Shown here in pieces: positions 215 through 2,286 of a stretch of 64,000 nucleotides of DNA. Both the position numbers and the translations under genes were made by a program. The notes under the pieces are model-generated. The model was not told the DNA's origin and did no database searches. It saw nothing but the letters and a program-made list of their open reading frames with translations. The DNA comes from Polyangia bacterium (GTDB lineage Bacteria > Myxococcota_A > Polyangia > Fen-1088), in contig DATATI010000034.1 in the NCBI GenBank assembly GCA_036268875.1, positions 89,875-153,874 on the forward strand, written 5' to 3'. The number at the start of each line of letters is the position of its first letter. Positions within the stretch are counted from its first letter, which is position 1.

Positions 215-985
215 CTAGCTCGCCCGCTTCATGCGCAGACCGTTCAGCTCGTCGAGGAACTTGCCGGTGGTCTCGATGCTGTTCTCCAGCGATTCGATGA
301 CCAGGCTCAGCAAACCCTCATTTTCGTAGCGCAGCACTTCGTAATAACGCTGGCGCTCAATCGAGTGGATGACCGCCGGCAAGTAACCGTGCCGCAGCAA
401 CATGAAGTTCATCAGCAGCCGAGCGACCTTGCCAGAGTTCTTGGTCCACGGGTATGTCGTCAGCAGCCGGTGGTGGGCCTTGGTGGCGCGGGTGATGGGG
501 TGCAAGTCGCGGAACTCCTCCGACTCCAGCCACTCGCCCAGCTTCCGCATCTTGTACGAGATTTTCTCGGGCGGCGCGATCTCGTGATAGTAGAGCCGGT
601 GCAGCGGGTTCTCGCGCCGATACGGGTAGCCCTTGGCGGCTGCCTCCGGCGTCAGAATGGCGTAAAGCTTTCGAACCAGCTCCAGGTCCACCGGCAGCGG
701 CTTCTTCGTGTTGTTGGCTTCCTCACGAACGAAGTCCACCGCCAGCTTGTGGTTGCGAACCTCTTCGTACATCGGGATCAGCGTGACGTCGCTGATGATG
801 CGCTGGTCGATGGCCGCCTTCAGCTCGGAGTACGAAAGCACAACGCCCTCAAGGGCGTTGTCGTGAAAGATCCAGGAGACGTCCAACCGATCCTGGTAGG
901 TCTTGATCAGGTTCGGCGGAAAGCTGGCCAGCTTATTCCGCACCGCTTCCATCTTCGCGTCGAGCTCGAAGAACTTGGCGTCCAT
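215..985 (-). CDS. Fic-fold protein with degenerate active-site motif
   Basis: About 256 residues. The Fic family transfers AMP or other phosphate-containing groups to hydroxyls using the motif HPFx(D/E)GNGRxxR. Here the equivalent stretch reads YPWTKNSGKVARLLMN (DNA about 428-475): the catalytic His is Tyr, the acidic residue is Lys, GN is NS and the first Arg is Lys. The helix after the motif and the upstream segment NALEGVVLS, resembling the inhibitory (S/T)xxxE(G/N) helix of class II Fic proteins, are kept. The fold is therefore probably intact but the usual chemistry lost. I chose the ATG at 985 because AGGAG lies six bases before it; in-frame starts at 991 and 1009 are possible. The gene is divergent from the dcw cluster. 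A regulatory or binding role is inference. Confidence 0.7.
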   Translation of the reverse strand: MDAKFFELDAKMEAVRNKLASFPPNLIKTYQDRLDVSWIFHDNALEGVVLSYSELKAAIDQRIISDVTLIPMYEEVRNHKLAVDFVREEANNTKKPLPVDLELVRKLYAILTPEAAAKGYPYRRENPLHRLYYHEIAPPEKISYKMRKLGEWLESEEFRDLHPITRATKAHHRLLTTYPWTKNSGKVARLLMNFMLLRHGYLPAVIHSIERQRYYEVLRYENEGLLSLVIESLENSIETTGKFLDELNGLRMKRAS

Positions 986-1018: not shown

Positions 1019-1064
1019 AGTGGCCCCTCAAAAAACGGGCGCCCCCACAACAAACGGGGCCACT
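1019..1064. repeat. Perfect 9-bp inverted repeat upstream of the Fic-like gene
   Basis: AGTGGCCCC at 1019-1027 is matched exactly by GGGGCCACT at 1056-1064, with 28 bases between. It sits 34-79 bases upstream of the Fic-like start at 985, where an operator would be expected. It could alternatively be a worn end of an insertion sequence; no transposase is nearby. Confidence 0.5.
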
Positions 1065-1272
1065 GTACCTCCTGTTAACCCTTTAGTCAAGCGGGGTTAG
1101 CCGTGATTGCCGGACTGCGAGCAGGGTCACACCCGTCAGCCGTGGCCAGCCAAACCCCCCGGCTTTTCGCCCGCGGTCTAGGTCCCCGCGGGCCACCGTC
1201 TCGGTCCGTTGACCGGCCGCCCTCCGACGCCTGATCCCATGGCAATCATTAGCGAAATCGCCGAGGCAAAAC

Positions 1273-1300
1273 TTGACAGGGCAAGCAGTCGGGCAAGAAT
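1273..1300 (+). promoter_or_regulatory. Candidate sigma-70 promoter of the dcw cluster
   Basis: A perfect TTGACA (1273-1278) is followed after 16 bases by AAGAAT (1295-1300), a 4/6 match to the -10 consensus. Transcription would start near 1307, leaving a leader of about 60 bases before rsmH. It is the best promoter-like element ahead of the cluster. Confidence 0.45.
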
Positions 1301-1368
1301 TGCCAAGGGCTGCTTGGGCGCTGGACAAAGCCGACCCAACAAGCCGCCTCGCCGCCCCTATCTATATA

Positions 1369-2286
1369 ATGACCGGTCCTGCGCTTTCCTTTTCCGACCA
1401 TCAACCGGTCCTGCTGGACGCGGTTTTGCAGCACCTCGCCCCGAGCCCGGGCGGTCGGTACTGCGATGCAACCGTCGGGCTGGGCGGGCACGCCAGCGCG
1501 GTGCTGGAACGATCGGGACCGGACGGGCGGCTGATCGGTCTCGATCGCGATCAAGAAGCGCTGCGGACGGCCGCTGTTCGCTTGGCGTCGTTCGGCGATC
1601 GAGTCTCGCTGATCCACGCGCCGTTCTCGCAAGTGGGCAAAGTTCTAGATGATCTGGGCGCGATCCCGATCGACGGCTTCGTGGTTGATCTGGGTGTGTC
1701 GTCGCCGCAGCTGGACACCCCCGAGCGCGGCTTTTCGTTTCAGCGCAATGGCCCGCTGGACATGCGCATGGATCAAAGCCAGGGCGAGACGGTGGCCGAC
1801 CTCTTGCTGCGCGTGGATGAGATCGAGCTTGGTCGCATCCTGCGCGAGTACGGCGAGGAGCGCTATGCCGCCCGCATCGCCCGGTCAATCCTGCAAGCGC
1901 GCGATCGCGGCGAGCTGTCGTCGACCGGTGCGCTGGGCGCGCTGGTGGCCCGCGCGTTGCCCCATCACGAGCGTCACAAGAACCCGGCGACGCGCACCTT
2001 CCAGGCGCTGCGCATCGCTGTTAACCAAGAGCTGACCGAGCTGGAACAGTTTCTCGACCAGATGGCCGACTGCCTGCGCCCCGGCGGCCGCATCTGCATC
2101 ATTGCATTTCACTCGCTGGAGGATCGCATCGTCAAGCATCGGCTGCGCCAACTGGCGGCGCGCAATGGCCCCACGCCGCCAAAGCTGCGCTTGCTGACCA
2201 AGCACGTGGTGGTGGCCGACGAGGCCGAGCGGTTGGCCAACCCACGCTCGCGCTCGGCCAAGCTGCGCGCGGCGGAGAGGATCTGA
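1369..2286 (+). CDS. rsmH: 16S rRNA m4C1402 methyltransferase RsmH
   Basis: 305 residues, the usual length. RsmH (MraW) transfers a methyl group from SAM to N4 of C1402 in 16S rRNA. Visible signatures are HQPVLL near the N-terminus, the SAM-binding DATVGLGGH (about residues 33-41), GPLDMRM (about 128) and FHSLEDRIVK (about 247), all diagnostic. The frame is open upstream, but ATG 1369 precedes the conserved N-terminus by the normal distance; no good ribosome binding site is visible. It is the first gene of the dcw cluster here, and ftsL begins one base after its stop. Confidence 0.95.
   Translation: MTGPALSFSDHQPVLLDAVLQHLAPSPGGRYCDATVGLGGHASAVLERSGPDGRLIGLDRDQEALRTAAVRLASFGDRVSLIHAPFSQVGKVLDDLGAIPIDGFVVDLGVSSPQLDTPERGFSFQRNGPLDMRMDQSQGETVADLLLRVDEIELGRILREYGEERYAARIARSILQARDRGELSSTGALGALVARALPHHERHKNPATRTFQALRIAVNQELTELEQFLDQMADCLRPGGRICIIAFHSLEDRIVKHRLRQLAARNGPTPPKLRLLTKHVVVADEAERLANPRSRSAKLRAAERI

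Follow-up and report, generated by a model that had tools for sequence, protein, structure and literature searches.

Fic proteins are defined by a catalytic histidine, and the motif that carries it has the canonical form HPFx(D/E)GNGRxxR. In the known chemistry the histidine is the base, an acidic residue serves Mg, and asparagine and arginine serve the phosphates (PMC12409994). Here, we analysed a stretch of 64,000 nucleotides from a Polyangia bacterium (contig DATATI010000034.1 of assembly GCA_036268875.1, positions 89,875 to 153,874), referred to below as the window. Its gene at 215..985 on the minus strand (ATG at 985) codes for a protein of 256 amino acids that has the Fic fold and a largely replaced motif. 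We call this protein and its relatives pseudo-Fic.

Motif-poor Fic proteins are a kind already known, and the Fido proteins of this sort described earlier belong for the most part to effectors (BepC, Bep8, AvrB) or to small clades (Doc D2). The closest described systems are the class II AMPylases/deAMPylases FICD/HYPE and Fic-1 (PDB 4u0u, 6i7g, 5jj6), which have in common with pseudo-Fic the fold, the Glu-Gly of the inhibitory helix and the last arginine of the motif. Compared with FICD, pseudo-Fic is without the catalytic His, the metal ligand, the anion-hole Asn and the first Arg, and it has neither the tetratricopeptide repeat (TPR) nor the membrane part. BepC of Bartonella (HxFxKGNGRxxR) carries Lys at the metal-ligand position, as does the window protein. 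This Lys binds the phosphates of ATP in place of Mg, and the FIC domain of BepC binds GEF-H1 and acts in this way even after replacement of four residues of the motif (PMC7842960). However, BepC retains the His and the Asn and, as an effector carrying a BID domain, is injected, whereas pseudo-Fic is the product of a core gene in the chromosome of environmental bacteria. AvrB likewise has the Fido fold without the Fic motif (VIA comparison with the window model: Z 10.8, root-mean-square deviation 3.9 Å), but it is a remote effector, and no sequence similarity between it and the window protein was detected in the structure-chain search. In the Doc-type clade D2 (Qx[FY]x[DE][GV]NKR) the His is replaced clade-wide, as in pseudo-Fic (PMC4454073). 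That clade retains the acidic residue, the Asn and the Arg and has no inhibitory helix, being of Doc type, whereas pseudo-Fic replaces nearly all motif residues. The FIC domains of Bep8 (PFxxGNE) combine a very degenerate motif with a canonical fold (PMC8401265; PDB 4py3 was among the matches of our model), but they belong to effectors and their substitutions differ from those of pseudo-Fic. A search of the open-access literature found no earlier account of a pseudo-Fic that is both core and phylum-deep.

Fic fold and altered motif of the window protein

The window protein is a member of the Fic fold. It matched the Pfam family PF02661 (Fic) with 44.4 bits at a cut-off of 24 (E 3.1e-11), which was its sole significant Pfam family, and the cut-off was exceeded in all 18 genomes of the window's family. 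The closest solved structures by sequence were chains of human FICD (E about 1e-20; 7.5e-21 for 6i7h), to which the protein is about 22% identical. The E values of the Pfam and 6i7h matches, together with the fixation of the motif change in orthologues described below, place the observation beyond chance. An AlphaFold model made with 9 sequences reached a mean predicted local distance difference test score (pLDDT) of 79 and a predicted template modelling score of 0.81. In the VIA comparison this predicted model had the helical Fic fold: FICD with ADP was matched with Z 26.9 and 2.5 Å over 240 residues, the FICD structures as a set with Z 25-27 and 2.2-3.1 Å, and other Fic proteins with Z 19-26. 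A Polyangia relative with 47% identity was also modelled, with a pLDDT of 83. The XopAC subfamily of NCBIfam was rejected as an assignment: its score of 31.9 of 450 bits is far under the cut-off and reflects the shared Fic domain only.

The altered motif YPWTKNSGKVAR is encoded at 419..454 on the minus strand (residues 178-189). As an earlier note on this DNA had stated, it reads YPWTKNSGK in place of HPFx(D/E)GNGR, and VAR follows. In the alignment to FICD, YPWTKNSGKVARLLMN falls on the FICD motif HPFIDGNGRTSRLLMN. The catalytic His is changed to Tyr178, the Asp/Glu to Lys182, Gly to Asn183, Asn to Ser184 and Arg to Lys186, so the canonical motif with its catalytic His is absent from the window protein. 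That every key catalytic position is changed, as the note had put it, is true of these five positions and goes too far for Pro179, Gly185 and the last Arg (Arg189), which are retained. The Doc kinase subfamily has the motif HPFx(D/N)xNKR. This motif was not found either, as the window protein has NSGK with neither the His nor the Asn (the Doc-type D1 motif is given in PMC4454073). The note had also claimed a loss of the nucleotide-binding residues. The motif residues are indeed replaced, but nucleotide binding may persist by analogy, because the Lys that BepC has in place of the metal ligand binds the phosphates of ATP.

The segment HDNALEGVVLS aligns where FICD has its class II inhibitory helix (TVAIEG). 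Its motif HDNALEG lies at 845..865 on the minus strand (residues 41-47). Compared with the inhibitory consensus (S/T)xxxE(G/N), Glu46-Gly47 is present and position 42 is Asp/Glu in place of Ser/Thr, namely Asp42 where FICD has Thr. In established Fic structures, the arginine at the position of Arg189 pairs with the inhibitory Glu. The target-docking flap YRRENPLHRLYYHE is encoded at 581..622 on the minus strand (residues 122-135). With a pLDDT below 50 in both models it was the stretch of lowest confidence, though the most conserved one. The pocket-side segment ERQRYY (341..358, minus strand, residues 210-215) has the R..YY in common with canonical Fic proteins.

Distribution, age and selection

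An orthologue with an open frame and 65-85% identity was present in 18/18 genomes of the window's family, and the closest named relatives were Myxococcales and Polyangia assemblies. In the class Polyangia (Myxococcota), 303 of 317 genomes gave a match at E ≤ 1e-3; seven of these genomes gave only a weak match (worse than 1e-30) and may lack an orthologue, which leaves 296. Relatives were sampled within the phylum Myxococcota. In the phylum sample, the family alignment was matched at E ≤ 1e-5 by 211 genomes out of 377, often only weakly, and about 45 genomes of other classes gave E values between 1e-31 and 1e-57, of which 38 were read. The motif counts are based on 114 distinct class members whose sequence covers the motif and on these 38 relatives, with identical rows counted once; 20 stretches gathered later are outside the counts.

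The catalytic His was missing in 113/114 class members and in 38/38 relatives from other classes. Its position was occupied in the class by Tyr (72), Phe (39), Ser (1), Leu (1) and His (1), and in the other classes by Phe (16), Tyr (14) and Trp (8). Homologues with the canonical motif, which the earlier note had regarded as a sign of a damaged single copy, were not encountered among these 114 and 38 proteins. The anion-hole Asn was retained in 2/114 and 0/38, and the acidic metal ligand at position 182 in 5/114 (Lys or Arg in 81) and 15/38. The second Gly was found in 114/114 and 34/38 and R189 in every member of both sets, while the inhibitory Glu was present in 109/113 and 34/38, with Asp in the remaining four of each. 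In the flap, R123, P127, H129, R130 and Y132 were invariant in the class (114/114) and H134 occurred in 112/114; among the other-class relatives, 14/38 had both H129 and R130. The residues common to the two sets are mainly structural, plus R189. The only class member with a His at the catalytic position, L103 of genome G151 (HPFARHSGKLAR), lacks both the Asn and the acidic residue, and its His is likely a chance return. Two loci of family f22 (L174 and L175) carry about 30-45 extra residues just before the flap, and their profile match is split in two.

In a maximum-likelihood tree of 65 proteins, computed after removal of the motif columns, a branch with 100/100 support separated 54 pseudo-Fic proteins from 11 other Fic-family proteins, ten of which have the canonical His. 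The two groups are also set apart by their profile scores, with at least 118 bits for pseudo-Fic and at most 93 for canonical Fic proteins. A single loss of the His is the simplest reading of these data and not proof, since the 11 comparison proteins are few and were picked for resembling the window protein, and the root of the tree was not inferred. Judged from the sequences, the loss is an ancient, phylum-deep trait. The best explanation is that a FICD-like class II Fic fold lost its phosphotransfer machinery before Polyangia diversified. Matches on plasmids were ordinary Fic proteins with less than 60% identity, and 4 of the 5 that were read have the canonical motif. The fifth is a His-less 'Fic family protein' of an Aneurinibacillus plasmid (L229, SPFFVGNGKTAR), which falls outside the pseudo-Fic clade and is the remaining one of the 11 in the tree. 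On a Methylobacter plasmid (L226), a canonical Fic gene lies between the type I restriction genes hsdS and hsdR and overlaps both by 4 bases.

The ratio of nonsynonymous to synonymous substitution rates (dN/dS) was 0.012-0.139 in 13 pairs within the window's family and reached a maximum of 0.277 over all 26 pairs tested. In 11/11 same-genome pairs the value for pseudo-Fic was below that for rsmH (0.084-0.292). This agrees with the view of the earlier note that the gene is otherwise healthy, and the motif loss fixed in orthologues under strong purifying selection bears out its suggestion of a pseudoenzyme or a new activity. A damaged copy is ruled out by the orthologues and by dN/dS. As a natural experiment, this near-universal core gene of the class can show what use a Fic domain has when it does not transfer AMP. 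The gene is also informative about where the inhibitory helix came from and what it does, a helix whose conservation here has outlasted the activity it supposedly inhibits. Several hundred entries annotated 'Fic family protein' would be misread as AMPylases or toxins.

Possible functions

On the sequence evidence, pseudo-Fic is very unlikely to transfer AMP in the known way, because the His, the acidic residue and the Asn/Arg are all replaced. The flap, the Glu-Arg lock and the floor of the pocket are retained. As the catalytic residues are gone and the gene is nevertheless a core gene under strong selection, pseudo-Fic probably has a role other than the textbook Fic reaction. From the fold, the motif loss, the presence across genomes, the selection, the retained Glu and Arg and the conserved flap we infer, with somewhat more confidence than doubt, that pseudo-Fic is a vertically inherited, single-domain, non-AMPylating housekeeping protein that works as a binding protein. 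In Fic enzymes, the flap holds the backbone of the target. In pseudo-Fic, the flap (R-x-x-x-P-x-H-R-x-Y-x-H) would dock a partner protein, and since it is the most conserved stretch and yet has the lowest model confidence, it may be a segment that becomes ordered on partner binding. The pocket, with Lys/Arg where the Mg ligand would be, may bind a nucleotide or another phosphorylated ligand, and the pair Glu46-Arg189 could form a lock that is opened or closed by the ligand. The signal would then be carried by binding and not by catalysis. BepC offers a precedent for such a role, whereas AvrB exemplifies the opposite outcome, in which a Fido fold without the motif has gained a new activity.

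Several points weigh against this binding role. Residues E46, R189, R211, Y214, Y215, H129, R130 and H134 are near-absolute, as they would be in an active site. The gene neighbours vary between lineages, so no single partner is indicated. The roles of the residues were transferred from FICD by alignment. A bolder version is that of a phylum-deep, non-AMPylating core clade whose Glu-Arg lock can be switched, which in family f30 is anchored to the chromosome by its tail, and which was ancestrally coupled to RibA, being either ligand-sensing or newly catalytic. As a whole we hold it to be tentative and rather doubtful. If true, a Fic protein would have its role in basic metabolism or in the control of the nucleoid and not as a toxin, as an effector or in stress.

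Second in rank after the binding pseudoenzyme is a new enzyme on the Fido fold, which we regard as unlikely but as a serious competitor. Its chemistry would be metal-independent and would use R189, K182/K186 and the flap residues H129, R130 and H134, perhaps with a diphosphate or nucleotide-sugar donor as in AvrB. AvrB, also without the Fic motif, is a glycosyltransferase in which Arg266 and Asp297 matter (PMC10866546). The near-invariance of H129, R130, Y132 and H134 in the class is unusual for a mere scaffold, and metabolic genes (ribA, thiE, ilvE, argH) are frequent neighbours. However, H129 and R130 are not clade-wide, given their joint presence in only 14 of the 38 other-class relatives. 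Since the clade-wide residues are mostly structural plus E46 and R189, one new chemistry for the whole clade is not supported, and a shared one is possible only for Polyangia and the ilvE-linked group.

Persistence of AMPylation or deAMPylation with another residue in place of the His appears improbable. The fold is FICD-like and the Glu, which supports deAMPylation in FICD, is retained. There is also a Doc-type clade with Gln for His, and residual activity of an IbpA His mutant is cited (PMC4454073). However, the loss of the His goes with that of the anion-hole Asn, of the metal ligand and of the first Arg, and the residue in place of the His is mostly Tyr or Phe, of which Phe cannot act as a base. 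We consider it highly improbable that pseudo-Fic acts on a canonical Fic protein of the same cell, with which it would mix, as inhibitor or in the manner of an antitoxin, although one Campylobacter Fic protein serves as antitoxin for another (PMC5651007). A PF02661 scan found no second Fic protein in the window's own genome, and pseudo-Fic was the sole PF02661 protein in 5/18 family genomes, the window's included (G000, G004, G007, G009 and G011; some genomes are incomplete), so it needs no canonical Fic partner. A decaying copy or a sequencing artefact, for which no supporting point was found, has a negligible chance, as the frame is open and conserved in 18/18 family genomes, dN/dS is well below 1 and the same substitutions recur in independent assemblies.

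Gene surroundings and the basic tail of family f30

The neighbours of pseudo-Fic differ between lineages, and their counts are lower bounds because many loci have only 0.6-1.5 kb of flank. Among the 73 class loci with at least 3 kb, rsmH was divergent upstream in 26, thiE was convergent downstream in 20 and argH lay downstream in 12. In 23 of the 73 a HisKA kinase stood upstream on the strand of pseudo-Fic, accompanied by a TlpA-like redoxin in 18 cases and by an Omp85 protein in 10. The order Omp85, a protein of unknown kind, HisKA kinase, TlpA-like redoxin and pseudo-Fic on one strand recurs in several families and is exemplified by L077:2487-7705. Of the 38 other-class relatives, 24 form one motif group; in 19 of these the next gene downstream, on the same strand, is ribA (GTP cyclohydrolase II), and in one ribA lies upstream. 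Of the remaining 14, 12 have ilvE on the same strand. In the class, ribA was found 3' of pseudo-Fic on the same strand in 5/114 loci (L061, L179, L180 and L181 of family f17; L203 of f12). The recurrence of this pair in distant lineages suggests that the fic-ribA linkage is ancestral; the window has no such pair. Other fic-ribA loci are L117, L118, L121, L122, L124-L127 and L130-L132, and the two frames are 1 base apart in L131 and L132. A common operon partner was not accepted: with different neighbours per lineage, these genes offer a lead and no proof. A FicTA module consists of a toxin gene and an adjacent small antitoxin that bears the inhibitory motif. In pseudo-Fic the inhibitory motif is in cis, and the conserved neighbours among open reading frames of at least 90 amino acids were rsmH, argH, the kinase/redoxin set, and ribA or ilvE.

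Many orthologues of the large family f30 have long frames. In 21/23 of its loci examined (L079, L081, L230-L236, L238-L244, L246, L248, L249, L188 and L056), the Fic domain is preceded by a tail rich in Lys, Arg and Ala, mostly 170-600 residues long. The net charge was +45 to +138 in 20 of these 21. The tail gave dN/dS values of 0.11-0.44 in 24 pairs, which indicates that it is coding and constrained, though less so than the domain. NCBIfam and Pfam found no further domain in the long frame of L079; what extends it is a basic tail of low complexity. By contrast, L027/L237 was rejected as tailed: its long frame shows no basic tail and probably does not code for protein. The tails resemble the histone-H1-like DNA-binding tails of bacteria, and such a tail would tether the domain to DNA or another polyanion. 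A Fic enzyme of Coxiella is DNA-regulated via a helix-turn-helix instead (PMC10628234). The window protein has no basic tail.

In the window, the divergent neighbour of pseudo-Fic is rsmH (mraW), gene 1 of the division and cell wall (dcw) cluster, listed as an open reading frame at 1273..2286 on the plus strand with a likely coding start at about 1370; an orthologue of it matches MraW methylase. The gene does therefore adjoin the dcw cluster, as reported before. A role in cell division is not supported, since elsewhere the gene persists without rsmH as its neighbour. The earlier note gave coordinates only; the gene is on the minus strand. A possible in-frame TTG start at 1009 lies upstream of the ATG; the N-termini of the family align from Met1. 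A candidate sigma-70-like promoter of pseudo-Fic at 1062..1090 on the minus strand is a consensus match only. One promoter-like site each was found for pseudo-Fic and rsmH, that is, 2 against 0.2 expected from shuffles. Just 3' of the pseudo-Fic stop codon, positions 162-213 hold a 19-bp tandem repeat in 2.8 copies.
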